From Hypericibacter adhaerens (GTDB lineage: Bacteria; Pseudomonadota; Alphaproteobacteria; Dongiales; Dongiaceae), in contig NZ_CP042582.1 of the NCBI RefSeq assembly GCF_008728835.1, positions 1,054,001 through 1,118,000 on the forward strand: DNA of 64,000 nt. Direction: 5' to 3'. Each line of letters starts with the position of its first letter. Position 1 is the first letter of the stretch. The translations under genes and the position numbers were made by a program. Below are positions 8,617 to 51,369 of this stretch, piece after piece. The notes beneath the pieces are model-generated. The model searched no databases, was not told where the DNA came from, and was given only the letters and a program-made list of their open reading frames with translations.

Positions 8617-8625
8617 AAATAACCC

Positions 8626-8653: not shown

Positions 8654-8654
8654 G

Positions 8655-9222: not shown

Positions 9223-9251
9223 CACCCGATTTCAGTCGGTTCCTCCTCCCG

Positions 9252-9290
9252 GGACCGCTTCGCTCGACGGCGAAGCGGTCCTTTCTTTTT
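9252..9290 (+). terminator. Intrinsic terminator of the phasin gene
   Basis: A perfect 12-bp stem (GGACCGCTTCGC at 9252-9263 with its complement at 9270-9281) encloses a six-base loop and is followed by TTTCTTTTT (9282-9290). Confidence 0.92.
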
Positions 9291-9397
9291 GCGGGTTCGT
9301 CGTCGGCGCCGGCTTGCCATTTCGCCGAATAGGCAGGACGGCGATTTCTGCCTATGGTCCAGGAATCGGGCCGGATCGAACCGGAGGGGCCATCGCC

Positions 9398-9772
9398 ATG
9401 ACCGAGACCAGGAAGCCCACGGTGCCGCTGCTGCGCGCCACCATCACCTATGAGGATTTCGACCGGGTCGATATCCGCGTCGGCACCATCGTCGCGGTCG
9501 ATCCGTTCCCCGAGGCCCGGCGCCCGGCCTTCAAGCTGCAGGTCGATTTCGGTCCCGAGATCGGGACCCGGCGCACCTCGGCGCAAGTGACCAAGCACTA
9601 TCACCCGCAGACCCTGATCGGCCGCCAGGTGGCGGCGGTGGTGAACTTCCCGGCCAAGCAGATCGGCAAGTTCATGTCCGAGGTGCTGGTGCTGGGCTTC
9701 CCCGACCATGAAGGCGAGGTCGTCCTGATCGGCCCGGAACGCCCGGTGCCGAACGGGGGGAAGCTGTATTGA
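9398..9772 (+). CDS. csaA: CsaA-type tRNA-binding protein
   Basis: A 124-residue OB-fold protein of the CsaA family, related to the tRNA-binding domain of methionyl- and phenylalanyl-tRNA synthetases and reported as export chaperone-like in Bacillus. The start at 9398 follows GGAGGGG at 9382-9388. Signature segments are YEDFDRVDIRVGTIV at the first strands, KLQVDFGPEIGTRRTSAQVT, VAAVVNFPAKQIGKFMSEVLVL and the C-terminal PERPVPNGGKLY. Length is normal. A longer in-frame start at 9314 lacks a ribosome site. Convergent with the histidine kinase gene; an inverted repeat pair separates them. Confidence 0.92.
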   Translation: MTETRKPTVPLLRATITYEDFDRVDIRVGTIVAVDPFPEARRPAFKLQVDFGPEIGTRRTSAQVTKHYHPQTLIGRQVAAVVNFPAKQIGKFMSEVLVLGFPDHEGEVVLIGPERPVPNGGKLY

Positions 9773-9802
9773 GGCAGCCAGTAGACTCCCGCTTTCAATG
9801 AT

Positions 9803-9902
9803 CCCTTCCCCCCTTGTGGGGGAAGGTTAGGAAGGGGGGTGATCGTGGAACGCGATGGCTGCCCCACGCCCTCCCTGGCCCTCTCCCATCAGGGGGAGGG
9901 GA
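9803..9902. repeat. Inverted pair of REP-like hairpin elements (pair 3)
   Basis: Left copy 9803-9839 (CCCTTCCCCCCTTGTGGGGG stem plus TTAGGAAGGGGGG tail), right copy about 9867-9902 in the opposite orientation (tail CCCTCCCTGGCC, then a CTCTCCCATCAGGGGGAGGG hairpin). It lies between the convergent csaA and histidine kinase genes, tails inward. Confidence 0.7.
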
Positions 9903-9935
9903 TAATGAGAACCGGGGAGGGGATAACAGGGAACG

Positions 9936-11297: not shown

Positions 11298-11300
11298 GGC

Positions 11301-11990
11301 TCAATCCAGCCGCAGCATATAGCCGCGCCCGCGCACGGTCTGGAGATAGCGCGGGAAGCGCGGATCGGGCTCGATCTTGCGCCGCAGCCGCGTGATCTGC
11401 ACATCGACCGCCCGGCCGCTGCCCTCGGCCGAGGGCTGCTGCGACAGCTCCTCGCGGCTGACCGCCTGGCCGGCGCGCTGAGCCAGCGCCGCCAGGAGCT
11501 CGGCCTCGGCGGTGGTGAGCCGGATCTCGTCCTGGCCGCGCTTCAGCTCGCGCCGGTCGAGATCGAAGGCATGGGGGCCGAAACGCAGCAGCCGGCGCGG
11601 CGCCTGGGCCTCGCTGTCGCGGGTCCGGCGCAGCACGCTCTGGATCCGCAAGACCAACTCGCGCGGCTCGAACGGCTTGGCGAGATAATCGTCGGCGCCT
11701 TGCTCGAAGCCGGCGATGCGGTGCTGGGCCTCGCTCATCGCGGTCAGCAGCAGGATCGGCACGTTGCTTTCCTGCCGCAGGGACTGGGTGAATTGCAGGC
11801 CGCTTTCACCGGGCATCATGATGTCGCAGACGATGAGGTCGAAGGCGAGGCCGGCCAGACGCTCGCGCGCCTGCCGGGCGTCGGCCGCCGCGGTCACGCG
11901 GAAACCCTTGTCGGTGAGGTATTTGCGCAGAAGCTCCCGCAGCCGGTTGTCGTCGTCCACGACGAGGATGTGAGGCGCTTCGGCGGTCAT
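11301..11990 (-). CDS. OmpR-family response regulator
   Basis: A 229-residue two-domain regulator. The receiver has the acidic pair in LVVDDDNRLREL, phospho-acceptor Asp56 in LIVCDIMMPGESG, and the lysine in DDYLAKPFEPRELVLR. The C-terminal winged helix (about 130-228) includes RLTTAEAELLAALAQRAG and VDVQITRLRRKIEPDPRFP, ending with the wing TVRGRGYMLR. Typical length. It precedes its kinase by 3 bp, so both are made from one transcript. Target genes are not evident from the neighbourhood. Confidence 0.94.
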   Translation of the reverse strand: MTAEAPHILVVDDDNRLRELLRKYLTDKGFRVTAAADARQARERLAGLAFDLIVCDIMMPGESGLQFTQSLRQESNVPILLLTAMSEAQHRIAGFEQGADDYLAKPFEPRELVLRIQSVLRRTRDSEAQAPRRLLRFGPHAFDLDRRELKRGQDEIRLTTAEAELLAALAQRAGQAVSREELSQQPSAEGSGRAVDVQITRLRRKIEPDPRFPRYLQTVRGRGYMLRLD

Positions 11991-12071
11991 GGCCGCGGGA
12001 TTATAGGCCGGTGCGCCGGGGCCAAGCCAGCATGGCCGGGCTTCCCCGGGAAGCTCTCGGCAAGGCCCTCG

Positions 12072-35343: not shown

Positions 35344-35395
35344 CGTGTCTGCTGCGCTCGTCAGGGCGGGGTTTCACTGAATCCAGGAGTAGATC

Positions 35396-36841
35396 ATGAA
35401 TGCCGAACGCGGCCGTGACATCCAGCTGCTGATCGATGGCGAGTTTCGGGCGGGCAGCTCGAACGACTGGCTTGCGATCGTGAACCCCGCGACCGAGGCG
35501 ACCGTCGGCCGCCTCGCCGTCGCGACGAAGGCGGATCTCGACCGGGCACTGGCCGCCGCCGCGCGCGGCTTCGCGCAATGGCGCACGGTCTCGCCGTTCG
35601 AGCGCTCGAAGCTGCTGCGCCGCGCGGGCGACCTGATCCGGTCGCGCGCCGACGGCCTGGCCGAGGCGCTGACCGCGGAGCAGGGCAAGCCGCTGGCCGA
35701 GGCGCGCATCGAGATCATGACCTGCGGCGACATCCTCGACTGGTATGCGGAGGAAGGGCGGCGCACTTACGGCCGCACCATCCCGGCGCGCCTGCCGGGC
35801 GTGACGCAGATCGTGACACAGGAGCCGGTCGGCCCCGTCGCGGCCTTCAGCCCCTGGAACTTTCCGGCCTCGCAGGCGATGCGCAAGATCGCCGGCGCGC
35901 TCGCCGCCGGCTGCTCGATCATCATCAAGCCGCCGGAAGAGGCGCCGAGCGCGGCGCTCGCCTTCGGCGCGGCGCTGACCGAGGCCGGGGTGCCGGCCGG
36001 CGTGGTCAATATCGTGTTCGGCCGTCCGGCGGAGATCTCCGAGCATCTGATCCCTTCGCCGATCATCCGCAAGGTCTCCTTCACCGGCTCGGTGCCGGTC
36101 GGCAAGCATCTGGCGCAGCTCGCCGGCGCGCATATGAAGCCGGCCACGATGGAGCTCGGCGGCCATGCGCCGGTCCTGGTGTTCGACGATGTCGATCCGG
36201 CCAAGGCGGCGCAGATCCTGGTCGGCATGAAGTTCCGCAACGCCGGGCAGGTCTGCGTGTCGCCGACGCGCTTCTATGTGCAGGGCGACAGCTACCGACC
36301 CTTCCTCAAGGCCTTCGCCGGCGCGGCGCAGGCCTTGCGCGTGGGCGAGGGCCGCGATCCGCAATCGCAGATGGGACCGCTCGCCAACCGCCGCCGGCTC
36401 GACGCCGTCGAGAGCCTGGTGAACGACGCGGTCGCGGACGGTGCCAAGGTCGCCACGGGCGGCAAGCGCATCGGCAATCGCGGCTATTTCTACGCGCCCA
36501 CCGTGCTGACCGATCTGCCGGCCTCGGCGCGGATCCTCTCGACCGAGCCCTTCGGCCCGGTCGCCCTGATCCAGCCCTTCGGCGATCCGGCCGAGGCGAT
36601 CGAGAAAGCCAATGCCACCAGCTATGGGCTGGCTTCCTATGCCTTCACGAAATCCTCCGAACGGGCGGCGCTGGCAGCGGGCTCGCTGCAGTCCGGCATG
36701 GTCGGCATCAATCATTTCGGGGTGGGGCTGATCGAGACGCCGTTCGGCGGCATCAAGGACAGCGGCTACGGCCACGAAGGCGGCAGCGAAGGCCTCGCAG
36801 CCTATCTGGTGAAAAAGTTCGTCAGCCAGGCGCCGATCTGA
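35396..36841 (+). CDS. NAD(P)-dependent aldehyde dehydrogenase (succinate-semialdehyde dehydrogenase type)
   Basis: A 481-residue ALDH. The catalytic Cys lies in FRNAGQVCVSPTRFYV, the general-base Glu in TMELGGHAPVLVF, and the cofactor motif in SFTGSVPVGKHL; FSPWNFPASQAMRKI is the oxyanion-hole Asn region. ETPFGGIKDSGYGHEGGSEG at the C-terminus is typical of GabD/SSADH and related enzymes. Length is normal. It follows the cupin gene and converges with the flavin monooxygenase gene 13 bp away. Exact aldehyde unknown. Confidence 0.9.
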   Translation: MNAERGRDIQLLIDGEFRAGSSNDWLAIVNPATEATVGRLAVATKADLDRALAAAARGFAQWRTVSPFERSKLLRRAGDLIRSRADGLAEALTAEQGKPLAEARIEIMTCGDILDWYAEEGRRTYGRTIPARLPGVTQIVTQEPVGPVAAFSPWNFPASQAMRKIAGALAAGCSIIIKPPEEAPSAALAFGAALTEAGVPAGVVNIVFGRPAEISEHLIPSPIIRKVSFTGSVPVGKHLAQLAGAHMKPATMELGGHAPVLVFDDVDPAKAAQILVGMKFRNAGQVCVSPTRFYVQGDSYRPFLKAFAGAAQALRVGEGRDPQSQMGPLANRRRLDAVESLVNDAVADGAKVATGGKRIGNRGYFYAPTVLTDLPASARILSTEPFGPVALIQPFGDPAEAIEKANATSYGLASYAFTKSSERAALAAGSLQSGMVGINHFGVGLIETPFGGIKDSGYGHEGGSEGLAAYLVKKFVSQAPI

Positions 36842-36854
36842 TCCGGCCGCGCCG

Positions 36855-37952
36855 TCACTCGGCGGCGCTGACGCCGCGGCTGCGCGCCCGGTCGGCGGCG
36901 AGCCGGCGGGTCAGCGGGATCAGTTCGCGGCCATAATCGATCGCGTCCTCCAGCGGATCGAAGCCGCGGATCAGGAAGGTCGTGACGCCGAGATCGAAAT
37001 AATCGAGCAGGCCCTCGGCGACCTGCTCCGGCGTTCCCACCAGCGAGGTGCTGTTGCCGCGCGCGCCGGTCGCGGCGGCGGCGGCCGTCCAGAGGCGCTT
37101 GTCGAGGCGGGCGCCCTGGGCCGCCGCCGCCAGCAGGCGCTGCGAGCCGGTATTGGCGGGCTTGAGATCGGCCGCGCCGAGCCCGGCCTCTGCCCGCACG
37201 GCGCGGATGCGCTCGAGGATCTCGTCCGCCCGCTTCCAGGCCGCCTCTTCCGTGCCGGCCAGGATCGGCCGCAGCGAGAGGCTGAAGCGGACCTGCCGCC
37301 CATGCTTCGCCGCGGCGGCGCGCACCCGCGTGACGGTCTCGCGCACCTGTGCAAGGGTCTCGCCCCACAGCGCATAGATGTCCGCATGCTTGCCGGCGAT
37401 CTCGACCGCCGCGTCGGAGGAGCCGCCGAAATAGACCGGGATCGACGGCGTCTGCAGCGGCTTCACCTGGGAGAAGGCGCCGTCGACCCGGTAATACTTG
37501 CCGCTGAAGTCGAAGGGCTTCTCGCTGGTCCAGGTCCGGCGCAGCAGCGTGACGAACTCGTCGGTGCGCTCATAGCGCTCGTCGTGGGTGAGATAGTCGC
37601 CGTCGCGGCGCTGCTCGGCATCGTCGCCGCCCGAGATGATATGGACTGCCACGCGCCCGCCGGTGACGTGATCGAGCGTGGCGAAGTTGCGCGCGGCATA
37701 GGTCGGCGCCACGAAGCCCGGGCGATGCGCGATCATCAGGCCCAGCCGTTGCGTGACGCTGGCGGCATAGGCGGCGATCTGGGCGCCATCGGGGGCGTCC
37801 GAATGATGCGCGACCAGGATGCGGTCGAACCCGGCCGCCTCATGCGCCTGCGCGAAGCGCCGGACATAGTCGAGATCGACGATCGGCCCGCGCGCCGGGA
37901 TCGTCTCGGAGGCGAGGCGGTGGGCGATCATGCCGATGAAGTCGATGGTCAT
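36855..37952 (-). CDS. LLM-class flavin-dependent monooxygenase (SsuD-like)
   Basis: A 365-residue FMNH2-dependent monooxygenase of the alkanesulfonate monooxygenase type. Recognisable segments are FDRILVAHHSDAPDGAQIAA, RPGFVAPTYAARNFATLDHV, GRVAVHIISGGDDAEQRRDGD, and YFGGSSDAAVEIAGKHADIY. SsuD releases sulfite from alkanesulfonates using reduced flavin from a partner reductase. The gene lies 37 bp downstream of an acyl-CoA-dehydrogenase-like oxygenase on the same strand, a combination found in sulfur-acquisition clusters. No transporter or flavin reductase is adjacent. Confidence 0.9.
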   Translation of the reverse strand: MTIDFIGMIAHRLASETIPARGPIVDLDYVRRFAQAHEAAGFDRILVAHHSDAPDGAQIAAYAASVTQRLGLMIAHRPGFVAPTYAARNFATLDHVTGGRVAVHIISGGDDAEQRRDGDYLTHDERYERTDEFVTLLRRTWTSEKPFDFSGKYYRVDGAFSQVKPLQTPSIPVYFGGSSDAAVEIAGKHADIYALWGETLAQVRETVTRVRAAAAKHGRQVRFSLSLRPILAGTEEAAWKRADEILERIRAVRAEAGLGAADLKPANTGSQRLLAAAAQGARLDKRLWTAAAAATGARGNSTSLVGTPEQVAEGLLDYFDLGVTTFLIRGFDPLEDAIDYGRELIPLTRRLAADRARSRGVSAAE

Positions 37953-37989
37953 GGCGGTTTTTCCGGGGCTCTTTGGAAGGGGCGTCGCG

Positions 37990-39174
37990 TCAGGGGACCG
38001 GCGCCTCGAGATCGAGGGCCAGCCGTCCGCTCGCGATCCGTACCGAATCGTCCTGGGGTGTGTGGATGCGGCCGCAGACCACGTCGCGGAAATGGCGCTC
38101 CAGCGGCTCCTCGGTGGAAAGGCCGGGATTGCCGGAGAGCCTGACCGCGGTTTCGACGGCAGCGATCGCCTGGCTGGTCACGGTCAGCTTGATCTGGCCG
38201 CTTTCCGTGAGGCGGGGCGGATGGCCTTCGTCGGCGTCGCGGGCGGCGCTGCGCAGAAGACGCTTATTGACGTCGAGTAGCGTCTCGATCTCGCCGGCTG
38301 CCTCCTGGAAGCGCGGCAGGCTCGCGAGCGGCGCGCCCAGATTGGCCGGTGCGCGTGTCTGCAGAAATCGCAGGAACCATTGGCGGGCCGCCAGAGCGAT
38401 GCCGTGATAGACCGCGGCCACCAGCAGCGTGTTCCACGCATAGACGGTCGGGTCCTGCGGATGCCAGGCGGCGGGGGCGCGGATATCGACGGCGTGATCC
38501 GCCGGAATCGCCACATCGCGCAGGATCACGTCATGGCTGGCCGAGGCCCGCATGCCGAGCTGGTTCCAACTTTCCCTGACTTCGATGCCGGGCGTGCCGC
38601 CGGGCACCAGGAACGTGCCGACCCTGGGGTCGGGCCCCTCGGTGTGGGCCCAGACCGCGAGCCAGGACAGGATGGGGATGCCGGTCGAGTAGATCTTGTG
38701 CCCGCTGAGGCTCCAGCCGTTCGCCGTTCGCCGCGCCACGGTCGCCGGCAGGCCGCCGCGCGCCGGCGTGCCCAGGGCGGGCTCGACCCTGAGCGCGTTG
38801 ATCAGCGAGATCCCGGTCGCCGCTTCGCGGCCGAGCCGCTCCGCCCAGGCGGCGGGCCAGCTGCGTGCCGCCGTCGCGAGATGGATATAATGCATGGCGA
38901 GCACCAGCGCGGTCGAAGGCTCGCCCTGTGCGATGTCGCGGATCACGGCGACGGCATCCTCGAGCCCGCGGGCGTGGCCGCCGAAACGCTGCGGCGCATT
39001 GAGTGCCAGCAGGCCTTCCTGGGCGAGCCGGTCGAAATTCGCATGGGGAAAGCTCGGGGCCCGGTCGTGAGCGCCGGCGGTCAGGGCGAATTCCTCGCCG
39101 AGCCGGGCCGCGCGATGAACCGGCGATTCGACCTCGATGGACGGACTCGGGTGGGGCTTGGCCATGGGGACCAT
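37990..39174 (-). CDS. Acyl-CoA-dehydrogenase-fold flavin monooxygenase (SfnB/DszC-like)
   Basis: A 394-residue protein with the acyl-CoA dehydrogenase fold. FDRLAQEGLLALNAPQRFGG at the N-terminus, GWSLSGHKIYSTGIPILSWL, a central beta-domain (FLVPGGTPGIEVRESWNQLG) and the helical C-terminus are typical. SfnB and DszC-type members lack the dehydrogenase glutamate and use reduced flavin and oxygen in sulfur scavenging. The C-terminal GNPGLSTEEPLERHFRDVVC is consistent with that group. An alternative ATG four codons in is equally possible. Coupled with the SsuD-like gene, so desulfonation or sulfone oxidation is the inferred role. Confidence 0.84.
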   Translation of the reverse strand: MVPMAKPHPSPSIEVESPVHRAARLGEEFALTAGAHDRAPSFPHANFDRLAQEGLLALNAPQRFGGHARGLEDAVAVIRDIAQGEPSTALVLAMHYIHLATAARSWPAAWAERLGREAATGISLINALRVEPALGTPARGGLPATVARRTANGWSLSGHKIYSTGIPILSWLAVWAHTEGPDPRVGTFLVPGGTPGIEVRESWNQLGMRASASHDVILRDVAIPADHAVDIRAPAAWHPQDPTVYAWNTLLVAAVYHGIALAARQWFLRFLQTRAPANLGAPLASLPRFQEAAGEIETLLDVNKRLLRSAARDADEGHPPRLTESGQIKLTVTSQAIAAVETAVRLSGNPGLSTEEPLERHFRDVVCGRIHTPQDDSVRIASGRLALDLEAPVP

Positions 39175-39374
39175 TGGAATGGGCCAATTTCGGGGATGGG
39201 GCCGTCACCGCCCCGCCCCAGAGAACGCGCTGGACGCCCGCGCCGTAAATCGAGCATTTCTTCTGCGGGCCTTGAGAAAATCTCGTTGGTCGCGACCGAG
39301 GCCAGCGTATTTAGAAGGCGGTGCGGCCGCGCCGGACGGCGCGTTCCTACGGCCTCTCTCAATGGGTTGGAACC

Positions 39375-40487
39375 ATGGATCTTTTCACACCGGTCACGAT
39401 CGGGCCGCTGAAACTGCCCAACCGCATCGTCATGGCGCCGATGACGCGCAACCGCGCCCGCGACGATCAGACGCCGACGGAGGCGATGGCGACCTACTAT
39501 GCCCAGCGCGCCAGCGGCGGCCTGATCGTGACGGAGGCGAGCCAGGTCTCGCATCTGGGCGTCGGCTACCCGCGCACGCCCGGCATCCATAACGAGGCGC
39601 AGATCGAGGGCTGGCGCCGGGTGACCGACATGGTGCATGGCGCGGGCGGACGGATCTTCCTGCAGCTCTGGCATGCCGGCCGTGCCTCGCATCCCTCGCT
39701 GCTGCCGGACAGCGCCTTGCCGGTCGCGCCCTCGGCCATCGCGGCCCGGGGCAAGGCCTTTACGTTGCAGGGCCTGTTGCCTTTCCCGACGCCGCGAGCA
39801 CTCGAGACGCGCGAGATCGCCGGGCTGGTCGCCGAGTTCGGCGCGGCCACCCAACGCGCACAGCTTGCCGGTTTCGACGGCGTCGAGATCCATGCCGGCA
39901 ATGGTTATCTCATCGATCAGTTCCTCCGGGACGGCACCAACCGGCGCACCGACCGCTATGGCGGCGATGCCGCCGGTCGCGCGCGGTTCCTGCTCGAGAT
40001 CGCCGAGGCGGTCATCGGCAACTGGAGCGCCGACCGGGTGGGCGTGCGCCTGTCGCCGGTGCAGAGCTTCAACGACATGAGCGATTCCGACCCCGCCGCC
40101 ACCTTCGGCCATGTGGCCGCCGCCTTGGATCCGCTGGGGCTCGCCTATCTCCATGTGGTGGAGCCGGTCACCGGCAGCGAGGCCGGCCAGTTCCCGCCGG
40201 TCGCCCCGGGCCTGCGACGCGCTTTCAAGGGGCCGCTGATCCTCAATGGCGGCTACACCCATGCGCTGGCCCAGAAGGCGATCGCGGCGGGCGAGGCCGA
40301 CCTGATCTCGTTCGGCGCGGCCTTCCTCGCCAATCCCGATCTGCCGGAGCGGCTGCGCCGCCGCACGCCGCTCAACCCGGCCGATCGCGCGACCTTCTAT
40401 GGCGGCGACGAGCGCGGCTACACCGACTATCCGCCGCTGCCGGATACGGTCGCGGTGGAGGAAGGCGAGGGTCCCAGCCTGTCCTGA
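39375..40487 (+). CDS. Old yellow enzyme family alkene reductase (NemA-like)
   Basis: A 370-residue FMN-dependent reductase of activated double bonds. Start ATG 39375. The substrate-anion-binding pair appears as FDGVEIHAGNGYLIDQFL (His-x-x-Asn), followed by RDGTNRRTDRYGGDAAGRAR, a family signature. FMN-binding segments include NRIVMAPMTRNRA near the N-terminus and FGAAFLANPDLPERL near the end. Typical length. The gene is divergent from the SfnB-like gene with 200 bp between them, and converges with the chemosensory operon. Confidence 0.94.
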   Translation: MDLFTPVTIGPLKLPNRIVMAPMTRNRARDDQTPTEAMATYYAQRASGGLIVTEASQVSHLGVGYPRTPGIHNEAQIEGWRRVTDMVHGAGGRIFLQLWHAGRASHPSLLPDSALPVAPSAIAARGKAFTLQGLLPFPTPRALETREIAGLVAEFGAATQRAQLAGFDGVEIHAGNGYLIDQFLRDGTNRRTDRYGGDAAGRARFLLEIAEAVIGNWSADRVGVRLSPVQSFNDMSDSDPAATFGHVAAALDPLGLAYLHVVEPVTGSEAGQFPPVAPGLRRAFKGPLILNGGYTHALAQKAIAAGEADLISFGAAFLANPDLPERLRRRTPLNPADRATFYGGDERGYTDYPPLPDTVAVEEGEGPSLS

Positions 40488-40505
40488 CGGCGCCGGCCGG
40501 GCGCC

Positions 40506-42653
40506 TCAGCCGCGGTCGAGGATGGTCCGGATCTTCACCGCCAGGGCCCGCTTGCCGAAGGGCTTGGGCAGCAGATGGACGCCGGGGTCGAGGCGGCCGT
40601 GATGCACGACGGCATTCTCGGTATAGCCGGAGGTGAAGAGGATCTTGATGCCGGGCCAGCGGCGATGCACCTCGTCGGCGAGCTCGCGCCCCGAGAGCCC
40701 GCCCGGCATCACGATGTCGGTGAACAGCAGATCCACCTTCGGCGCCTTCTCCAGCGCGGCGATCGCGTCGGGGCCGTTGGCGGCCTCGACGACGGTGTAG
40801 CCGAGCGACTGCAGCAGGCCCACGACATATTCGCGCACCATCCCGTCGTCCTCGACCACCAGGATCGTCTCCTGGCCGCGCGGCTGGGCCGCCGTGTCCG
40901 ACTGCGGGACCGCCGCCGCCTGCTCGGCCTCCGACAAGGCACGCGGCAGATACATCTTCACCACCGTGCCGTGGCCGATCTCGCTGTAGATCTTGATATG
41001 GCCGCCGGACTGCTTGACGAAGCCGTAGATCATGCTGAGGCCCAGCCCGGTCCCCTTGCCGACCTCCTTGGTCGTGAAGAAGGGCTCGAAGGCGCGGGCC
41101 TGGACCTCGGGCGTCATGCCCGTGCCCGTGTCCGTCACCGCCAGCATGACATACTGGCCCGGCTCCACATCGGCGTTGGCGACGGCATAGTCCTCGCTGA
41201 GCCGCGTGTTGGCGGTCTCGATCGTCAGCTTGCCGCCGTTCGGCATGGCGTCGCGGGCATTGACGGCCAGATTGAGGATCGCGGCCTCGATCTGCGCCGG
41301 GTCGGCGAAGCAGGGCCAGAGCCCGCCGGCCAGCACGCATTCGATCTCGATGGATTCGCCGAGCGTGCGCTGCAGCATGGCTTCCATGTTGGCGGCGAGA
41401 CGGTTCATCTCCACCTTCCGCGGCTCCAGCGGCTGGCGCCGGCCGAAGGCGAGGAGCCGCCGCGTCAGGTCGCTGGCGCGCGAGGCGGCCTGGTCGATCG
41501 TCTGGATCTGGTGCCGGCGGGCCTCGTCGAGGTTGGGCGCCGCGCTCAGCATCTCCGTATAGCCGATGATCACCGTCAGCAGATTGTTGAAGTCGTGGGC
41601 GATCCCGCCCGTGAGCTGGCCGATCGCTTCCATCTTCTGCGCCTGGCGGAGCTGCTGCTCGAGCTGGCGGCGCTCGTCGATGTCGATCAGGACGCCGACA
41701 TGGCCCAGATAGCGGCCGTCGGCCGAGAAGCGCGGGACCGAGGTGTCGAGGAACCAGCGGTATTTCCCCTCCTTGTCGCGCAGCTGATATTCGTCGACGC
41801 AGCTCGTCCGGTCCGCCACCATCTTGCGCTGGAGGCTCCTCGACGCCTCGCGATGGCTCGGATGCATGTTCTCGGCAAAGCCCTGGCCCAGCTCGTCGTT
41901 GAACTCGCGGCCCGAATATTCCAGCCAGCGCTTGTTGACGAAGATGCACTCGCCCTGGTCGTCCGACATCCACAGCAGCGCCGGCATGGTGTCCGCGATC
42001 GCGCGGAACCGGCTTTCGCTCTCGCGCAGCTCGTGGATCTTGTCGTTCAGCTGGAGGTTGGCTTTGCGCAGCTCGGCGGTGCGTTCGGCGACGCGCGCCT
42101 CCAGCTCCGTCTTCGCGGCGGCCAGGGCGGCCCGGTTCTCCTGCAGCTCGTTGTTGGCCCGGACCACGTCCTCGAAGGTCGAGATCAGGAGGTCGACGAT
42201 CTGCTCCTTGTCGGAGGTGATGGTGAAGCGCTTGCCCAGGAAGGCGACCTCGACCCCGAGCTTGACCTTCCCGTCCTGGCGCAGCGACTTGCTCTCCAGC
42301 AGCGTGCGCACGCGATGGAGCAGCTCGCCCGTCTGGTAGGGCTTGGTCAGGAAGTTGTCGGCCCCGGAATCGAGGCCCTCGATGATGGCCATCGGATTGT
42401 CGAGCGTGGTCAGCAGGATCACCGGCGTCCGCTGCGAGGCCGGAAGCTGCTTGACCCTGCGGCAGAGCTCGTAGCCGGACTGCCCGGGCATCACGACGTC
42501 GGAGATGACCAGGTCGAACTGCTTCTCCTGCAGGACCGCCAGCGCTTCCTCGGCGCTGCCGGCATGCTCGACCGTGAAGCCCTCGCTTTCCAGGATCATC
42601 CGGAGCCGCTCCGCCTGGGTGGGGCTGTCTTCGACGATGAGGATCTCGACCAT
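40506..42653 (-). CDS. Hybrid sensor kinase REC–PAS–HisKA–HATPase–REC, terminal gene of the chemosensory operon
   Basis: A 715-residue soluble protein. Receiver 1 (about 1-120) has Asp52 in [14 protein letters not shown] and [10 protein letters not shown] coiled-coil linker (160-210) leads to a PAS domain (about 210-330; [20 protein letters not shown]). The kinase H-box is [20 protein letters not shown] with His353, followed by an HATPase domain ([32 protein letters not shown]). Receiver 2 (about 590-712) has [15 protein letters not shown]. No membrane segment is seen. It occupies the place of WspR in Wsp clusters. Receiver 1 is probably phosphorylated by CheA and gates the kinase, an inference. 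Confidence 0.9.
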
Positions 42654-42671
42654 GCGGTACTCCGGATCTCC

Positions 42672-43700
42672 TTAGACCATGTCCAGCAACTGCGGCGCGA
42701 TGGCGGGCAGGGGCAGGATCGCATCGACCTGATTGGCGGCAATGGCGGCGGCCGGCATGCCGAACACGACCGAGGTCGCCTCGTCCTGCGCGATGACGAA
42801 CCCGCCGCGCTCGCGCACGAAGGACAGGCCGTCGACGCCGTCGCGGCCCATGCCGGTCAGGATGATGGCGGTGACCGCCCGCCCGGCCGCCTGGGCGACC
42901 GATTGAAAGAGGAACGTCGCCGAAGGGCGGAATCCGCCGAGGGGCGGTGCCGCCGAAAGCAGGACCGTCCAGTTCGGGAGCAACCCCAGGTGCCGGTTGT
43001 CCGGCGCGACATAGACGGTCCGGGGCTCCAGCGTCTCCTCGGCCTCCGCCACCTTCACCCGCAGCGAGCAGACCGTGTTGAGCCAGGTGGTGAAGCCGGC
43101 GATGAAGCCGCCGGCGATATGCTGCACGACCAGGATGGGGGCGGGGAATTCCGTCGGCAGCTGCCCCAGCAGGGTCTGGAGAGCGGCCGGCCCGCCGGTG
43201 GAGGCCGCGATGGCGACGACCCGGCTGTGCCGCTGCGGCCTGACCTCCGCCGTCGCGCGCGCCCGGGGTGCCGTGTCCCGCGTTCCCCAGTGGCGCACCA
43301 CCTTGACCTCCGCCATCGCCTTGACGGTGGCGGCGAAGCGTTGCCGCTGCTCGCGCTCCGCCGCGGAGACCGGCTCGGGCGGTCGCGGCAGGACCGTGAG
43401 CGCGCCGGCACGAAGGGCCAGGATCGAGAGCTCGACCTGGCGTTCCGACGGCGCCGAGGAGACGATCACGATCGGCGTGGGCGCCTCGATCATGATCCGC
43501 TTCGTGGTGTCGAAACCGTTCATGCCCGGCCCGTCGATATCCATGACCACGACGTCGGGCCGCAGCCGCTTGGTCATGGCGACGAGGCTGTTGCCGTCGC
43601 CGGCCTCGCCGACTGTGGCGATCGCCGGGTCGGCCGAGAAGAGATCGAGCAGAAGGCGGCGACCGGTGACGGAGGAGTCGGCGAGGAGGATGCGGATCAT
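42672..43700 (-). CDS. cheB: Chemotaxis protein-glutamate methylesterase CheB (WspF-like)
   Basis: A 342-residue two-domain protein. The receiver has phospho-acceptor Asp54 in VVMDIDGPGMNG; the usual acidic pair near the N-terminus reads LLADSSVTG, leaving one Asp. The methylesterase catalytic triad is present: Ser167 in IAASTGGPAAL, His194 in VVQHIAGGF and Asp287 in LTGMGRDGVDGL. It removes methyl groups from the receptor to adapt signalling. It lies between cheA and the hybrid kinase in the operon, the position of WspF. Confidence 0.93.
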   Translation of the reverse strand: MIRILLADSSVTGRRLLLDLFSADPAIATVGEAGDGNSLVAMTKRLRPDVVVMDIDGPGMNGFDTTKRIMIEAPTPIVIVSSAPSERQVELSILALRAGALTVLPRPPEPVSAAEREQRQRFAATVKAMAEVKVVRHWGTRDTAPRARATAEVRPQRHSRVVAIAASTGGPAALQTLLGQLPTEFPAPILVVQHIAGGFIAGFTTWLNTVCSLRVKVAEAEETLEPRTVYVAPDNRHLGLLPNWTVLLSAAPPLGGFRPSATFLFQSVAQAAGRAVTAIILTGMGRDGVDGLSFVRERGGFVIAQDEATSVVFGMPAAAIAANQVDAILPLPAIAPQLLDMV

Positions 43701-43713
43701 GGCCTGGGTCCGC

Positions 43714-45972
43714 TCACAGCATCTGACGGATCGTCTCGATCAGCATCGTCTGATCGAAGGTGCTCTTCGGCAGATAGGCATTGGCGCCGACCTCCAGGCC
43801 CCGCGCCTTGTCGGATTCGGTTTCGCGGCCGGTGACGAGAATCACCGGCAGGCGGCGGAATCGCGCCGAGCCGCGGATCGTCGCGGTCAGCTCGAACCCG
43901 TCCATCCGCGGCATCTCCACATCGCTGACGACCAGGTCGGCGCCCTTCTCCTGCAGCAGGCGCCAGGCCTCGGCGCCATCCGACGCGACCGTCACCTCGT
44001 AGCCGGCCGCCTCGAGAATGCTTTTCTCCAGCGTGCGGGTGGTGACGGAATCGTCGGCCACGATCAGCCGCGGCCTGGTCACGGCCTGCGAGGCCTCGGG
44101 CAGGCTCGGCCGGCTCGGCAGATGGCGGGCCGCGCGATGCGCCAGATCGGCCGCGTTCAGGATCGGCGCCACCCGTCCGTTCGGGAGGACCAGCCCGCCC
44201 GTGACCTCCTTCAAGCCCGCCAGCCGCGGTCCCAGGCTCCGCACCATCGCTTCCTGCTCGGCGATCAGCTCGTCGACCAGCAGCACCACCCGCTGGCCGG
44301 CGACCGCAAGAAGGACCGCGGGGCGCTGGTGGCGGTCGCCCGCCGGTTCCGCCGGGGGCATGCCGAGAAGCTCCGAAAGGGCGACCACCGGCAGCGGCGG
44401 CCCGCCCAGGATCAGCACATCGCGCCCGTCGATCGAACGCAGATCGTCGGCGCGGATCCGCAGCAGCCGCTCGATCGACGCGTTGTCGAACGCCAGGGTC
44501 CGGCCCGAAGCCCTGACCAGCATCACGCGGATGGTCGTGAGCGTCAGGGGCAGCGTCATCGTGAACCGGGTGCCGCGGCCCGCCTCGAAGGCGACATCGA
44601 CGCCGCCGCGCATGGTTTCCGCCTGCGTCTTGACGGCATCCAGCCCGACGCCGCGGCCGGAAATCTCGGTGACGATCGGGGCCGTCGAGAAGCCGGGCAG
44701 GAAGATATGCTGCGCGAGCTCGCGGTCGTCCGCCGTCTCGGGAATGTTCTTCTCTCGGGCGCGTTCGCGGATGGCCGCTATATCGAGCCCGGCACCATCG
44801 TCGGCGACCGTGACCTCCACCCGGGCGCCGCGCAGCGCCGCGGCGACGGTGACGCGGCCCCGGCTCGGCTTGCCGCGCGCGCGGCGGACGGAAGGCAGCT
44901 CGACTCCGTGGTCCATGGCGTTGCGCACGAGGTGCAGGAGCGGATCCTTCAGCCCCTCGAGCACCGATCGGTCGAGCTCGATCTCGGCGCCGTTGATCGC
45001 CAGCTCCGCCTCCTTGCCGCTGCTCTTCGCGAGATCGCGCACCACGCGCTCCAGCCCTTCGCAGGCCTCGGCGAAGGGCAGCAGGCGGGCCCGGCGGACC
45101 TCGGAATCGAGCATGCCGGTGGCGCGCTCGAAGACCCGCCGGTCGGCGACCAGGCCGCCGGCGAGGCGCTGAAGATCCTGCTCGATGCGATGCATGGCCT
45201 CGGTCGCGCGCCGGAACGCGGCCGTCGAGCGCGGCGAAACGCCCGGGCGCCGCTCGGCGGCGGCCGGAGCGGCGGAAGGCTCCGTGCCCGAGCCCTCCCG
45301 CAGCAGGCGCTCCATGGCGCGTTCGACCGTCCGCCAGTCGGATCGCCAGCGCTTGACGGTCTCGAGCGTGCCGGCGGCATCGGCCGCGCGTGCCGCGGCG
45401 CCGCGTTGCGCCACCATGAGCTCGCCGCTATAGGCCATGAGCGCGTCGAGCTTCTCGGCCGGAATCCGCACCAGCCGGTCGGAGAGCGGGCGCTCATCGA
45501 CCGCCGCGGCCGGCCGGGCGGGCGGCTCGGAGGGAGCAGGCGGGCGGGGCCGGGTCGGCTCCTTGGCCGTCTTGCCGGCCAGCGCCGTATCGAGGCGCTG
45601 CAGCGGCTGAGCCAGGGTCTGGGCGTCGAGATCCTTCTGCGCGCGAAGCTGCTTCACCATGTCGTCGATCGCGTCGACGATCGCGAACAGGGCCCGGAAC
45701 AGGTCCGCATCGATGGAACGCCCATCGACGGCGGTGGCGAACAGCTCCTCCAGCTTGTGGCAGGCGGTCTCGATCGCCGGCACCGTCACCGCATGGGCCG
45801 CTCCCTTCAGGCTGTGGGCGGTGCGGAACAGGGTCTTCAAGGTCGCGCCGCGATCGGCTGCCGCAGGTTGCTTTTCCAGCTCCAGCAAGCCGCGGTTCAG
45901 CGCCTGGACATGTTCCTCGGCTTCGCCGAGGAAGGTCTTCATCAGGCGGGCGATGAGGGCGTCGTTTTCCAA
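43714..45972 (-). CDS. cheA: Hybrid chemotaxis histidine kinase CheA–REC (WspE-like)
   Basis: A 752-residue CheA with fused receiver. Hpt domain with His53 in FRTAHSLKGAAHAV; a Pro/Ala-rich linker; dimerisation region; HATPase (RNAMDHGVELPSVRRARG; VTVADDGAGLDIAAI; GRGVGLDAVKTQAETMRGG); a CheW-like domain (about 500-600, TLTTIRVMLVRASGRTLAF). The C-terminal receiver (RLIVADDSVTTRTLEK) has Asp684 in LVVSDVEMPRMDGFEL. A CheA-REC fusion is characteristic of Wsp/alternative-function systems rather than flagellar chemotaxis. It is 10 bp downstream of the receptor gene. Confidence 0.94.
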   Translation of the reverse strand: MENDALIARLMKTFLGEAEEHVQALNRGLLELEKQPAAADRGATLKTLFRTAHSLKGAAHAVTVPAIETACHKLEELFATAVDGRSIDADLFRALFAIVDAIDDMVKQLRAQKDLDAQTLAQPLQRLDTALAGKTAKEPTRPRPPAPSEPPARPAAAVDERPLSDRLVRIPAEKLDALMAYSGELMVAQRGAAARAADAAGTLETVKRWRSDWRTVERAMERLLREGSGTEPSAAPAAAERRPGVSPRSTAAFRRATEAMHRIEQDLQRLAGGLVADRRVFERATGMLDSEVRRARLLPFAEACEGLERVVRDLAKSSGKEAELAINGAEIELDRSVLEGLKDPLLHLVRNAMDHGVELPSVRRARGKPSRGRVTVAAALRGARVEVTVADDGAGLDIAAIRERAREKNIPETADDRELAQHIFLPGFSTAPIVTEISGRGVGLDAVKTQAETMRGGVDVAFEAGRGTRFTMTLPLTLTTIRVMLVRASGRTLAFDNASIERLLRIRADDLRSIDGRDVLILGGPPLPVVALSELLGMPPAEPAGDRHQRPAVLLAVAGQRVVLLVDELIAEQEAMVRSLGPRLAGLKEVTGGLVLPNGRVAPILNAADLAHRAARHLPSRPSLPEASQAVTRPRLIVADDSVTTRTLEKSILEAAGYEVTVASDGAEAWRLLQEKGADLVVSDVEMPRMDGFELTATIRGSARFRRLPVILVTGRETESDKARGLEVGANAYLPKSTFDQTMLIETIRQML

Positions 45973-45982
45973 GGGGCCGGGC

Positions 45983-47449
45983 TCAGCGTCCGCCGTTGAC
46001 GAGCAGCCGCAGCTTCGCGCTCAGCAGGTCCAGGTCCTGCGCGGCGCGCTCGGTCTGCCGGGTCGACACCAGATTCTGGTTGGCGACCTGGTTGATGTTC
46101 TTCATGGCCTGGTGGATCTGCGCCATCCCCGTCGCCTGCTGCCCGACGGAGGCCGAGATCTGCGCCGCGAGCTGCGCCGCCTCGGTGATGGTCTCGGCCA
46201 GCGCCCGGATCGTATCGCCGGCCCGGCCCACCACCAGGATCGCCTCGTTGACGTTGCGGGTACCTTCCTCGGTCCGCATCACCGCGCCGTTGGTCGCCTT
46301 CTGGATGTCGCCCAGGATCTGGCGGATCTGCGCCGTCGCCTTCTTGGACTGGTCGGCCAGCGACTTGACCTCGCCGGCGACGACGGCGAAGCCGCGGCCG
46401 TGCTCGCCGGCGCGCGACGCCTCGATGGCGGCGTTGAGTGCCAGGAGGTTGGTCTGCTCCGCGATCTCGTTGACCGTGGCGATGATGTCGCCGATCGACT
46501 GCGCCTGCTCGGCCAGCCCCAAGATCCCTTCGGCGATGGATTCCGACTGCTCCTTGACCTTGCCCATCACGGTGACGGCTTCGTCCACGGCCCGCCGCCC
46601 GGCCTTGCCGCTCTCGACCGAGCGCTGGGCGGCCTCGGAAACGGCTTTCGAGCGCTGTGCCGCCTGATCGGAAGTCTGCGTCACCTCGTCCACCGTGCTG
46701 ACGGTTTCGGCGACGGCCGCCGCCTGCTCCTGCGAGCCCGAGGCGAGCTGCGTGGTGGCGGCCAGGATCTCGGCGGTCGCCGAGGCGAGGTTGCCGACCG
46801 CCGTGGTCACCGGGATCGTGATGCTGCGCAGGATGAAGAAGCCGGCCAACAGCATCAGGGCGACCGCGATCAGCGTTCCATAGATGATGCTGTCGAAGGT
46901 GGACTGCGCGGTATCCGCGGCGACCTTGTCCCGCCCCGTCTGCAGCATCGCTTCCTCGTCATCCATGTCCTTGAGGATGCCGCGGGCGTCGTCCATGAGC
47001 GCCTTGACGGTGCCGGCCTTGACCAGGCTCATGGCGCCATCCAGACCGGAGCTGCGTCGCGCATCGACCGTTTCCGCAAAGCGGTCGAACAGCGTCTTGG
47101 TCGTGTCGCGCAGCTTCTGCAGGCGTGCCTGCTGGTTGGGATTGTCCGCGGTCAGCGCGGTGACATCGGCCAGCGCCGCATCGAAGGCTTGCCTTCCGCT
47201 CTGGTAGGGATCCAGGAAGCTCTCGTCGCCGGTCAGCAGGTAGCCGCGCTCGCCGGTTTCCATGTCGATCAGGCCGGTCTTCACCTCGCCGATGGCCTTC
47301 TCGACCTCGAGCGAGTGGCGGGCGATGGCACGAGCGGTCATCAGGTCGCTCGTGTTGCTGTAGGACACCGCGCCGATGATAAGCAGGAACAGGAGGGCGA
47401 GGCCGAATCCAGTGCCGATCTTCGCCCTTATAGACAAGGTTTGCAGCAT
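45983..47449 (-). CDS. Methyl-accepting chemotaxis protein with CHASE3-like sensor
   Basis: A 488-residue inner-membrane receptor. TM1 at about 11-30 ([20 protein letters not shown]); a periplasmic helical domain with the CHASE3-type [22 protein letters not shown]2 at about 188-207 ([20 protein letters not shown]). Only about 25 residues separate TM2 from the methylation helices, so a HAMP domain seems to be missing. The hairpin tip [20 protein letters not shown] is intact, and the C-terminus ends LRLLVNGGR without a CheR-tethering pentapeptide. It fills the WspA role in the cluster. Confidence 0.92.
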
Positions 47450-47458
47450 TCCATCCCC

Positions 47459-48094
47459 CTATGGCTGGCGCGGCCGCGCCTGGCGGTCCGGCGCCACGAA
47501 CAGACGGCGATCCTTCAGCAGCGCCGCCCCATCGATCACGATCAAGGCCGTCTCGGTCACGCCCAGCCGGAGATCGGACGGCTGGCCCGGTGCGAAATCC
47601 GTCGATGTCAGAAGGCTCGGGGCCGGCAGCTCCACGGTCTCATGGAACTCCGTCACCGCGGCGCCCAGATCGGCGAACGCCTCGCCCAGGATAAGAACCC
47701 AGCTCGCCTCTTCTGGCGTCGTATGGCCGATACCGAAGAGGCGGCGAAGATCGGCGATCGGCAGGATGTCGCCGCGAAGATTGACGAGCCCCAGGAAGAG
47801 ATCGGCAGCGCCCGGTATCGGCGCGACCTCGTTCACACGGACGGCTTCGCGCACATAGCGGGCTTCGATCGCGTAGCGCTCCGTTCCCAGGGAGAAGACG
47901 ACGAGCTTGAGGCCGTCCCCGACCTCCGTCCGGTCGGAAAGCGGCTGCGCCAGGGCCCGGGCGCGCTGGTCCAGCGTGGCCCGCGCTTGCTCGCCTGCCG
48001 GTTCGTGGGGCTCGAGTGCGGCGGCGGACCGCGCCAGCCGCTCGCGTACCCGAGCCCAGTCTATCGACGATCTCTGCTCGTTCGAATCCGTCAC
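47459..48094 (-). CDS. cheW: CheW-type coupling protein with N-terminal extension
   Basis: A 211-residue CheW-domain protein. The first 55 or so residues form a charged helical extension (RERLARSAAALEPHEPAGEQ); the CheW domain follows with LVVFSLGTERYAIEARYVRE, DLFLGLVNLRGDILPIADLR and RLGVTETALIVID. It links receptor and CheA. Its start overlaps the cheR stop (48091-48094). Of the two CheW genes in the cluster it corresponds to WspD, by position between cheR and the receptor. Confidence 0.9.
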   Translation of the reverse strand: MTDSNEQRSSIDWARVRERLARSAAALEPHEPAGEQARATLDQRARALAQPLSDRTEVGDGLKLVVFSLGTERYAIEARYVREAVRVNEVAPIPGAADLFLGLVNLRGDILPIADLRRLFGIGHTTPEEASWVLILGEAFADLGAAVTEFHETVELPAPSLLTSTDFAPGQPSDLRLGVTETALIVIDGAALLKDRRLFVAPDRQARPRQP

Positions 48095-49563
48095 GGCCGC
48101 CCGCCCTGGTCATCGCCGATCAGCGCCAGTTGCGCTTTTGCGGCCGCCGTCAGTCGTCCGGCCGTCTCGCCCTCCGACAAGGGCACGGCCTCGTCCGCCG
48201 CTTTTCCGGCGGCCAGATCGCGGCCTCGGCGGTAGGCGCGCCGTGCGCCCGCCAGATCGCCGATCCGGCGCAGAACAGAGCCGAGCGCCAGATGGGCGAC
48301 CGCCAGCGAGCGGTCCAGATAGAGCGTCCGTTGCAGGGCCCGCTCCGCTTCCTCGTTGCGATCGAGACCGATCAGGAGCATGGCATGGAGAAAATGCAGC
48401 TCGGCCGTCAGCGGATGGGCGGCAATCGCGGCGCCGGCGAGCTTCTCGGCTTCCAGCGCGTCGCCGCTGTTGGCCAGGGCCTGCAGATGAAGCACGGCGG
48501 CGTGCGGGTCGGCCGCCCGCGAACGCCGCGTGAGCTCGATGACCTTGGCATGGTCCCCACGCGCGGCGGCGGCCCGCGCTTGCGCAAGAAGATCCGCCGT
48601 CTCCGCTGCCGGAGGGGCCTGGTCGCGATCCGGTGGCGGCGCCGGTTTGCGGTCCCACGACGCCGGGGGAGCCGGTTTCGGCGGTTCCGGCGGCCATTCC
48701 AGCTTTTGAGCCCAGCCGCGGAGGGTGGAACGCGGACGCCGCTCATGCCGATAGAACACGCCGGCCGGCGTCACCATGATCTCGTGCGGGCCTTCCTCCT
48801 GATAGACGGGATCGGACGGACCCATGATCAGCACGCCGCCGTCGGCGAGGGAATCGATCAGCGCGCGCATGACGCGCCGGCCCGTCTCGCGGTCGAAATA
48901 GATCAGGACGTTGCGGCACAGGATCAGATCCATGCCCCAGGCGCCGCTGGCGAGGGAGGGGTAGTGGTCGAGCGCCAGGTTCAGATATTCGAAATTGACC
49001 TTCTGGCGGAACCGCTCGGCCAGGAGCAGCCGGTCGCCGCCGCGCCGGAAATAGCGGTCGGCCAGCATCCCATCGTCGCCGCGCAGGGACCAGGAGCCGT
49101 AGCTCGCAGCGCGGGCGCGCGCCAGCGCCGCACGCGATATATCGGTCGCGAGGATGGTGAAGCGCTGATCGACCATCTCCTGCTCGAACAGGATGGCCAG
49201 CGAATAGGCCTCCTCCCCGGAGGCGCAGCCGGCACTCCAGGCGCGGATGGCGTGGTCGTGGCCGTGGCGGCGACGTATCTGCGGCAGAAGCTCGTGGCGG
49301 ATGAACTCGAACTGGCCGGGGTCGCGGAAGAAATAGGTCTCGCCGACGGTGAGCTCGGTGATGAAATCGTCCAGCGGCAGGCGCTGGCTGCCCAGGAGCT
49401 GCCGGCACAGCGCGACATCGTCGATGCCGGCCTTCGTCATCACCCGACGGATACCCGCCTCCGCGTCGTGGCGGCGATGGGGATTGAAATAGAGCCCCGT
49501 GCGTGCCTGGAGCCAGCCGGCAACCGCTTCATAGGCCGGATCGGTCCATGCGTCCGGTGTCAT
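48091..49563 (-). CDS. cheR: CheR methyltransferase with C-terminal TPR repeats (WspC-like)
   Basis: A 490-residue protein. The N-terminal helical domain precedes the SAM-dependent methyltransferase core: ITELTVGETYFFRDPGQFEF, IRAWSAGCASGEEAYSLAI, FTILATDISRAALARARA and MDLILCRNVLIYFDRETGRR. A Pro-rich linker (about 295-330) leads to tetratricopeptide repeats (about 330-470; AAVLHLQALANSGDALEAEK, ERALQRTLYLDRSLAVAHLA). TPR-bearing CheR is typical of WspC. It methylates the receptor. Overlaps both neighbouring genes by 4 bp. Confidence 0.94.
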   Translation of the reverse strand: MTPDAWTDPAYEAVAGWLQARTGLYFNPHRRHDAEAGIRRVMTKAGIDDVALCRQLLGSQRLPLDDFITELTVGETYFFRDPGQFEFIRHELLPQIRRRHGHDHAIRAWSAGCASGEEAYSLAILFEQEMVDQRFTILATDISRAALARARAASYGSWSLRGDDGMLADRYFRRGGDRLLLAERFRQKVNFEYLNLALDHYPSLASGAWGMDLILCRNVLIYFDRETGRRVMRALIDSLADGGVLIMGPSDPVYQEEGPHEIMVTPAGVFYRHERRPRSTLRGWAQKLEWPPEPPKPAPPASWDRKPAPPPDRDQAPPAAETADLLAQARAAAARGDHAKVIELTRRSRAADPHAAVLHLQALANSGDALEAEKLAGAAIAAHPLTAELHFLHAMLLIGLDRNEEAERALQRTLYLDRSLAVAHLALGSVLRRIGDLAGARRAYRRGRDLAAGKAADEAVPLSEGETAGRLTAAAKAQLALIGDDQGGRP

Positions 49564-50015
49564 GCCGGGGCCTCGGTCTCGACCAGCGCGTCGATCGCGT
49601 CCGCCTCGGCGGCCGAGAGGAAGGCCTGGAGGTTGTGGATGAGCACGAGGCCATCGGGCAGCTTGGCCACCCCGGCCACGAGATCGGCCCTGGTGCCGAT
49701 CGATGCGGGATTCTCGATCAGGCCGGGGTCGATGGCGATGAAATCCATCGCCCCCTCGACCCGCAGCGCCACGAGGCGGGGACCGGCACGCGCGACGATC
49801 AGCCGGTCGGCCGCCGACAGGGGCTTGGCGGGAAGGTTGAAGCGCGCGCGGATATCGAGGACGGGGACGAGCCTGCCCCGGAGATTGATCACGCCTTCGA
49901 CAATGGCGGGCGCGCGCGGCAACGCGGCCATGGTGACCGCCCGCACCACCTGATCGACATCGGTGCCGATCAGGCCATAACGCTGCCCGCTCAGAAGAAA
50001 AACGAGGACGTCCAT
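49560..50015 (-). CDS. cheW: CheW-type coupling protein, first gene of the chemosensory operon
   Basis: A 151-residue single CheW domain. VLVFLLSGQRYGLIGTDVDQ, IVEGVINLRGRLVPVLDIR and RLIVARAGPRLVALRVEG match the family. Length is shorter than classical CheW but complete. It is the promoter-proximal gene and corresponds to WspB. Its stop overlaps the cheR start (49560-49563). A TTAACA-N3-TGTTAA palindrome lies about 130 bp upstream. Confidence 0.9.
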   Translation of the reverse strand: MDVLVFLLSGQRYGLIGTDVDQVVRAVTMAALPRAPAIVEGVINLRGRLVPVLDIRARFNLPAKPLSAADRLIVARAGPRLVALRVEGAMDFIAIDPGLIENPASIGTRADLVAGVAKLPDGLVLIHNLQAFLSAAEADAIDALVETEAPA

Positions 50016-50146
50016 GAGCCGCCCTTCTCAGTGCCCCGCTTGTCCTGGCCTAGATCAATTTCCCTTTACCGGCCCTCGGTTCAATGGAGGTTCCAATGCC
50101 CGACCCTAGGGCACAACCTGACCAACTGGGTATCTTTCAAAAGTGA

Positions 50147-50161
50147 TTAACAAGATGTTAA
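50147..50161. promoter_or_regulatory. Perfect inverted repeat upstream of the chemosensory operon
   Basis: TTAACA-AGA-TGTTAA (6-bp arms) lies in an A/T-rich block of the 298-bp gap upstream of the first cheW gene. It is a candidate regulator site; the bound factor is unknown. TTAA half-sites in alphaproteobacteria also recall CtrA boxes (TTAA-N7-TTAA), but the spacing here does not fit that consensus on either strand. The rest of the gap shows a GAGAACGG-GCGA-CCGTTCTC hairpin (50203-50222) but no gene. Confidence 0.4.
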
Positions 50162-50313
50162 GGTTATTGGTTCCCTGCGATTCGGCCTGAAAATCCGCAA
50201 GCGAGAACGGGCGACCGTTCTCTCGCGGCGGTCGCGGGCGGCCACGCCGGATCGGCGCAATCCGAGCGAGGGCGGCCGGAGCCGGGGAAGGGGGCCGAGG
50301 GCGGGAAAAGCGC

Positions 50314-50910
50314 CTAGCGCGCCGCGACGGGTGCGCCGGCCGGCAGGAAATCGCGCCCCAGCACGCGGGCCTGCCGCAGCAGCGCCTGGCTCGCGGCATC
50401 GCTCTCGGTCGAGTTGAGCAGCAGCTCGAGCCGCCCGTTCTGCACGCCGCAATAGTCGAGGATGCCCTGGACCAGCTGGGTCTCCATGGCGCCGCGATAG
50501 CCGCGCGGGCCGTCATAGGTTTTGTTCCCGCCGGCAGCGAGGCCGATCAGGAGCCCGTGCTGGAGCGCGAGCCGGCTTTCGTCATAGGCCCAGCCGCGAT
50601 TCCAGACTCGATCGATCCAGCCCTTGAGCATCGCCGGAAAGGACCACCACCAGACCGGAAAGACCATCGCGATCGCCTGATGGCGTTCGACTCGGGCCTG
50701 CTCGGCCAGCACCGCATCGGAATAGCGCTTGGTCGCGTCGTCCCAATCCGGCTCGTCGGGCGGCAGGACCAGGGGATCGAAGCCCTCGGCATAGAGGTCG
50801 GCCAGCTCGCCGCCATGGCCGCTCTCGGCCAGCCCGGCACGAAACTCTCGAGCGACGGCCGCCGTCAGGGAATCGCGGCGCGGATGGCAGAGCACGGTCA
50901 GGACTTGCAT
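50314..50910 (-). CDS. NAD(P)H-dependent oxidoreductase of the flavodoxin-like (NQO/MdaB) fold
   Basis: A 198-residue flavoprotein. N-terminal LTVLCHPRRDSLTAAVAREF is the FMN/FAD phosphate region; AMVFPVWWWSFPAMLKGWID followed by RVWNRGWAYD is the family signature; GLLIGLAAGGNKTYDGPRGY is the third. Family members reduce quinones by two electrons. The gene stands alone between the chemosensory operon and msrB. Confidence 0.92.
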   Translation of the reverse strand: MQVLTVLCHPRRDSLTAAVAREFRAGLAESGHGGELADLYAEGFDPLVLPPDEPDWDDATKRYSDAVLAEQARVERHQAIAMVFPVWWWSFPAMLKGWIDRVWNRGWAYDESRLALQHGLLIGLAAGGNKTYDGPRGYRGAMETQLVQGILDYCGVQNGRLELLLNSTESDAASQALLRQARVLGRDFLPAGAPVAAR

Positions 50911-50940
50911 GCGCGCGGATTCCCTCTCGGTGACGGCCGG

Positions 50941-51369
50941 TTACTTCTTCTTCTCGTCTTTCGGCTCGAAGGTCAAGGAAGCGGAGTTGATGCAGAAGCG
51001 CAGGCCTGTCGGCGCCGGCCCGTCCGGGAACACATGGCCCAGATGCGCCGCGCAGCGCGCGCAATGCACTTCGGTGCGGACCATCATGTGGCTGCGGTCG
51101 ATCTGGGTCTCGACGACGTCCTTGCTCTCGGGCTGGGTGAAGCTCGGCCAGCCGCAGCCGGAATCGAACTTGTCGTCGGATTCGAACAGCAGCTCGCCGC
51201 AGCAGACGCAGCGATAGCGCCCGGTCTCGTGATTGTCCCAGTACGCGCCGGTGAAGGCGCGCTCGGTGCCCTGCTGCCGGGTGACGCGATACTGTTCCGG
51301 CGTCAGCTCCTGGCGCCATTCGGCGTCTGATTTCTGGATCTTCGGGGCCTTGGTGCCGCTCTCGGTCAT
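50941..51369 (-). CDS. msrB: Peptide-methionine (R)-S-oxide reductase
   Basis: MsrB reduces the R-form of methionine sulfoxide in proteins. From ATG 51369, with GGAGG seven bases upstream, it is 142 residues. Two zinc CxxC pairs (CVCCGELLF and [12 protein letters not shown]) and the catalytic Cys in [12 protein letters not shown] are present. [20 protein letters not shown] is also diagnostic. No signal peptide, so cytoplasmic; MsrP at 62093 would cover the periplasm. Confidence 0.96.

Follow-up and report, generated by a model that had tools for sequence, protein, structure and literature searches.

Several chemosensory systems are known to signal to a histidine kinase. In the Wsp system of Burkholderia, the histidine kinase WspH/WspHRR replaces the diguanylate cyclase, according to the available portions of two reports (PMC8552884, PMC4324302). 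The same portions place suppressors of Burkholderia wsp mutants in WspHRR and in the DNA-binding regulator Bcen2424_1436, describe c-di-GMP as unchanged in WspH mutants, and implicate a DNA-binding regulator (RowR). In Rhodospirillum centenum, CheA3 phosphorylates CheS3, a hybrid kinase, on its first receiver (REC1) and thereby controls the attached kinase, and the receiver of CheA3 acts as a phosphate sink (PMC3868531). In the available part of a survey of cheR-TPR clusters, about 40% of the response regulators carry HisKA-HATPase (PMC3447774). The idea that a chemosensory array feeds a kinase, which the initial annotation of the present locus put forward as distinctive, was thus already established by WspH/WspHRR, the CheA3-CheS3 pair, and these kinase-bearing regulators, as far as the available portions of the sources go.

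The operon analyzed here lies in a 64-kb window (the whole stretch of DNA under study) and is a variant of these systems, with another gene order, a single REC1 followed by a connector, a HisKA kinase, and a C-terminal REC. As described in the available portions of PMC8552884 and PMC4324302, the WspH system (H-system) of Burkholderia cenocepacia has similar parts (two CheW, CheR-TPR, CheA-REC, CheB, a receptor, and a hybrid kinase in place of WspR), the kinases being compared by description. However, those portions describe it as limited to Burkholderia, the window receptor is placed between cheW2 and cheA, and neither a connector nor REC-EAL neighbours are described for WspH there. The R. centenum Che3 cluster likewise combines CheA-REC, a hybrid kinase with N-terminal REC and PAS, and two CheW (PMC3868531). 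In CheS3, REC-REC(no Asp)-PAS-HWE kinase stands where the window kinase has a single N-terminal REC, connector, HisKA, and C-terminal REC; Che3 also includes CheY3, whereas no single-domain CheY is linked to the window operon. ACF clusters with cheR-TPR share CheR-TPR and a multidomain response regulator (REC-PAS-HK-REC here), but the available part of this general survey does not single out a connector subclass (PMC3447774). The comparison with the Pseudomonas Wsp pathway (R-system) drawn in the initial annotation stands: the component set is shared up to CheB, WspR (REC-GGDEF) is absent from the cluster, and the position of the receptor departs from the Wsp order mcp-cheW-cheR-cheW-cheA-cheB.

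Gene content and surroundings of the operon

Seven close-set minus-strand genes had been proposed at 40506-50015, and Pfam bears out all proteins and their order (Table 1); the junctions of -4, -4, 9, 10, 13, and 18 bp are also as originally given. The CheR tail (residues 387-450) contains weak matches to TPR_14 and TPR_8, each below the Pfam cut-off. Pfam recognizes CHASE3 (E 9.2e-36) and MCPsignal (E 6.3e-41) but no HAMP in the chemoreceptor, whose hydrophobic peaks lie near residues 11 and 188. CheA has its phospho-acceptors at H53 in Hpt and D684 in REC, and Pfam finds no P2 domain. The hybrid kinase is laid out as REC1(D52)-connector-helix-PAS-HisKA(H353)-HATPase-REC2(D646). All of these phospho-residues, including the originally named CheA H53 and REC1 D52, are present here and invariant across the aligned orthologues.

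Table 1. Features of the operon and its flanks (window positions)
Feature	Position	Strand	Size and description	Support or remark
cheW1	49560..50015	-	151 aa	PF01584, E 1.3e-26
cheR-TPR	48091..49563	-	490 aa	PF01739, E 1.2e-43
cheW2	47459..48094	-	211 aa, GTG start	PF01584, E 2.2e-23
chemoreceptor	45983..47449	-	488 aa, TM-CHASE3-TM-MCP signalling domain	Pfam
cheA-REC	43714..45972	-	752 aa, TTG start	Pfam Hpt, H-kinase_dim, HATPase_c, CheW, Response_reg
cheB	42672..43700	-	342 aa, REC + methylesterase	PF01339, E 7.3e-58
hybrid kinase	40506..42653	-	715 aa	Pfam and orthologue alignment
connector (LINK)	42138..42284	-	kinase residues about 124-172, ~45 residues	beta-hairpin, then start of long helix
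CtrA-type box	50147..50161	read on operon strand	TTAACATCTTGTTAA	about 130-146 nt upstream of cheW1 start
species-variable block	40449..50346		~9.9 kb	absent in other species of genus, flanks collinear

The window was scanned with self-built profiles for REC, GGDEF, EAL, and HK. As first claimed, these find no GGDEF, and around the operon they find no CheY standing alone. No EAL is detected by profile in the 64-kb window, and there is no linked REC-EAL. The sole other window match of the four profiles is an HK/REC gene pair (9939-12071, minus strand), unrelated to the operon. The host genome (5.87 Mb, one contig) contains a single further che cluster, at 3.945 Mb.

Of two species of the genus, one has the operon and the other lacks it as a clean block. 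In the same-genus genome (L186), positions 8398-9474 correspond to window 39372-40448 and positions 9533-10232 to window 50347-51057. A second block (window 35344-39371), encoding a luciferase-like monooxygenase and an acyl-CoA dehydrogenase, is likewise missing there, with collinear flanks.

A CtrA-type box upstream of cheW1 suggests that the operon is under CtrA control, a prediction from sequence. TTAA-N7-TTAA occurs once in the 64-kb window, compared with 0.01 expected, and a one-mismatch box at the same position in G002 (L117) is the sole such site in 19 kb. The other orthologous clusters contain no exact box, one-mismatch forms apart.

Conservation of the gene order

The order cheW-cheR-cheW-mcp-cheA-cheB-kinase is also found in G002, G004, and G007, which belong to the same family; identity between G002 and the window is 55-67% for most proteins and 41% for CheW2. 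The same seven-gene order is present in a Rhodospirillaceae MAG (L082) and in G112 (L140), and G075 (L143) follows it as far as the contig end. The more distant L122, L144, and L146 share the first six genes, followed by a REC-REC-HK gene and another REC/HK gene. Co-occurrence of kinase and cluster, which the initial annotation had proposed to check, is thus borne out by an order shared with distant relatives. This recurrence of gene order and kinase in distant Proteobacteria looks new. In a CheA tree built without a class-labelled reference, the window CheA lies among the connector-cluster CheAs and outside the main flagellar-type clade (100/98); the connector-cluster label needs 2 changes on this tree, compared with a shuffled mean of 14.6.

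Wsp-ordered clusters occur in the window's class as well (L119 4612-12989 and L145), and L119 ends in REC-GGDEF; the available part of PMC8552884 reports Wsp from beta- and gammaproteobacteria alone. The output of another Wsp-ordered cluster (L121 5896-7470) resembles a REC-PP2C phosphatase, judged by eye and without a profile. The outputs across these clusters (kinase, REC-GGDEF, PP2C-like) argue that receptor position and kinase output go together and that the output module is exchangeable. Nitrospirillum-type loci (L067-L077), in which che genes accompany a PAS-kinase-REC protein, have a flagellar-like order, a separate kinase, and no connector, and were set aside as a different thing.

A connector between REC1 and the kinase

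The segment that follows REC1 is highly conserved in the alignment, matches no Pfam family, and gives nothing significant against PDB sequences and solved structures. A connector profile, used in searches whose first pass scores limited candidates per genome so that absence is less certain than presence, has three matches among 385 genomes from the class, each next to an ACF-type CheA (the window, G112, and G075), and 26 among 398 genomes from the phylum. Twenty of the phylum places were retrieved for context, one of them an additional place in a genome that was already represented. Nineteen belong to Che clusters: the connector directly follows CheB in 12, is fused behind it in 6, and is divergent from the cluster in 1 (L157); L173 has a connector without a Che gene nearby. 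With G112 and G075 included, 21 of the 22 loci found by the connector alone have a Che-cluster context. The fusions (L161-L164, L166, and L170) encode REC-CheB-REC-connector(-HK) in one reading frame, which in L164 stops at the contig end. In L155 and L156, GGDEF-EAL-REC is part of the connector protein itself. A plasmid search with REC1-connector returned mostly ordinary receivers.

An AlphaFold model of low depth, built from two sequences (mean pLDDT 64), places a beta-hairpin at residues 134-145 and a long helix from residue 149, with helix pLDDT mostly 80-90 over residues 160-200. The modelled connector would fit a relay from the receiver to a coiled coil, which is only suggestive. As the mark of a class, with no Pfam family, specificity for Che clusters, and CheB fusion in six loci, the connector looks new. 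With it, chemosensory pathways that drive kinases can be recognized from sequence, and the single window case becomes part of a class that is widespread in Proteobacteria. It also provides a defined element for studying how a receiver, once phosphorylated, controls the kinase attached to it without phosphate transfer, a question open for CheS3. Possibly, although we lean against it, the connector is a transmission module, so far unnamed, that serves only chemosensory outputs and through which CheA controls effectors that can replace one another (hybrid kinase, plain kinase, or GGDEF-EAL), in a subclass that would usually end in c-di-GMP turnover via a kinase-to-REC-EAL relay.

Proposed signal path and output

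We favour a scheme in which a non-flagellar array acts through the hybrid kinase on an unlinked regulator, most likely a REC-EAL c-di-GMP phosphodiesterase; for the scheme as a whole we estimate a probability of about 0.6. An ACF-type array of CHASE3 receptor, two CheW, and CheA-REC, with CheR-TPR and CheB for adaptation, would signal when CheA phosphorylates REC1 of the kinase. This transfer is the best reading of the pair, by analogy with CheA3 and REC1 of CheS3. The signal from phosphorylated REC1 would pass through the conserved beta-hairpin-plus-helix connector to PAS and the CckA-like core, turning it on or off, while the receiver of CheA would probably serve as a phosphate sink. Phosphate from the kinase would then travel via REC2 and a histidine phosphotransferase to the unlinked response regulator. 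We infer all of these phosphotransfers and the sign of control.

The REC-EAL end of the path is suggested by relatives. In L082, L120, L140, L157, and L158, a gene next to the kinase encodes a REC-EAL phosphodiesterase. Alteromonas macleodii plasmid pMIT1002 (L187) is annotated with this pairing too, along with genes for an Hpt and a receiver at the opposite end of the cluster. L157 and L187, being nearly identical, were counted as one, and the REC-EAL neighbours represent about five independent lineages; REC-EAL is nearby in some relatives, not all. These neighbours, and the GGDEF-EAL-REC of two connector proteins, make it doubtful that the array feeds a kinase "rather than c-di-GMP", as originally worded. 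The kinase-REC-EAL adjacency looks new, and the pathway may end in the degradation of c-di-GMP. REC-EAL thereby becomes a testable output for systems of unknown end point, such as WspH; this link and the connector are the parts worth following. A tree built to pick out a dedicated Che-linked clade does not separate Che-linked from other REC-EALs.

The host genome encodes one REC-EAL of this family that is intact and lies about 8 kb or more from any kinase (G000:C1:2929393-2930541). It is present in the same-genus genome without the operon, too; the protein is thus not dedicated to the operon and is a candidate rather than a demonstrated partner, and a doubtful one on the sequence evidence. An EAL protein encoded near the flagellar che cluster (G000:C1:3951570-3952706) has a degenerate receiver, apparently without the usual acceptor pattern.

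The window has no linked regulator, which is also consistent with a hybrid kinase that, as proposed for WspH and RowR, would act on an unlinked DNA-binding regulator of surface polysaccharide or attachment genes, without c-di-GMP. Burkholderia WspHRR genetics and unchanged c-di-GMP favour this path in the available portions of PMC4324302 and PMC8552884, but the REC-EAL genes beside the kinase in several relatives and the GGDEF-EAL of two connector proteins make it unlikely here.

The favoured relay to an unlinked regulator includes a histidine phosphotransferase. The orphan Hpt for which a search had been suggested is not evident in the host genome, where the sole Hpt outside large kinases adjoins another hybrid kinase; ChpT, which the genome encodes, would therefore have to serve. 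Nor was a full-length WspR orthologue found elsewhere in the genome, in keeping with the absence of WspR first noted; the best match of REC-GGDEF type is partial, with 39% identity across residues 72-339 in a frame of 469 aa, and was rejected as WspR.

ChpT, the CtrA-type box preceding the operon, and the CckA-like kinase core would also suit a dead end, in which REC1 gates the kinase, REC2 is a phosphate sink, and the system acts via the general CckA/ChpT-CtrA network. The window kinase resembles CckA-type kinases in its PAS, HDFNN H-box, HATPase, and C-terminal REC, but it adds an N-terminal REC1-connector and scores far below the cut-off of the NCBIfam CckA models (463.5 vs 1000 bits). Moreover, the likeness is not specific because the host genome has 13 matches to CckA-like hybrid kinases, and we regard this integration as improbable.

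The kinase might instead have no functional tie to the cluster, with CheA working via the flagellar CheY or a single-domain regulator not yet known; in favour of this are the stand-alone REC genes of the cluster at 3.94 Mb, whose CheA groups with flagellar-type CheAs. Such a reading is strongly opposed by a kinase-cluster linkage kept over great distances, CheB fusions included, and is very improbable.

Plasmid pMIT1002 (103 kb, typed non-mobilizable) bears the whole chemosensory-to-REC-EAL set together with Hpt, so that accessory replicons carry the system as well.
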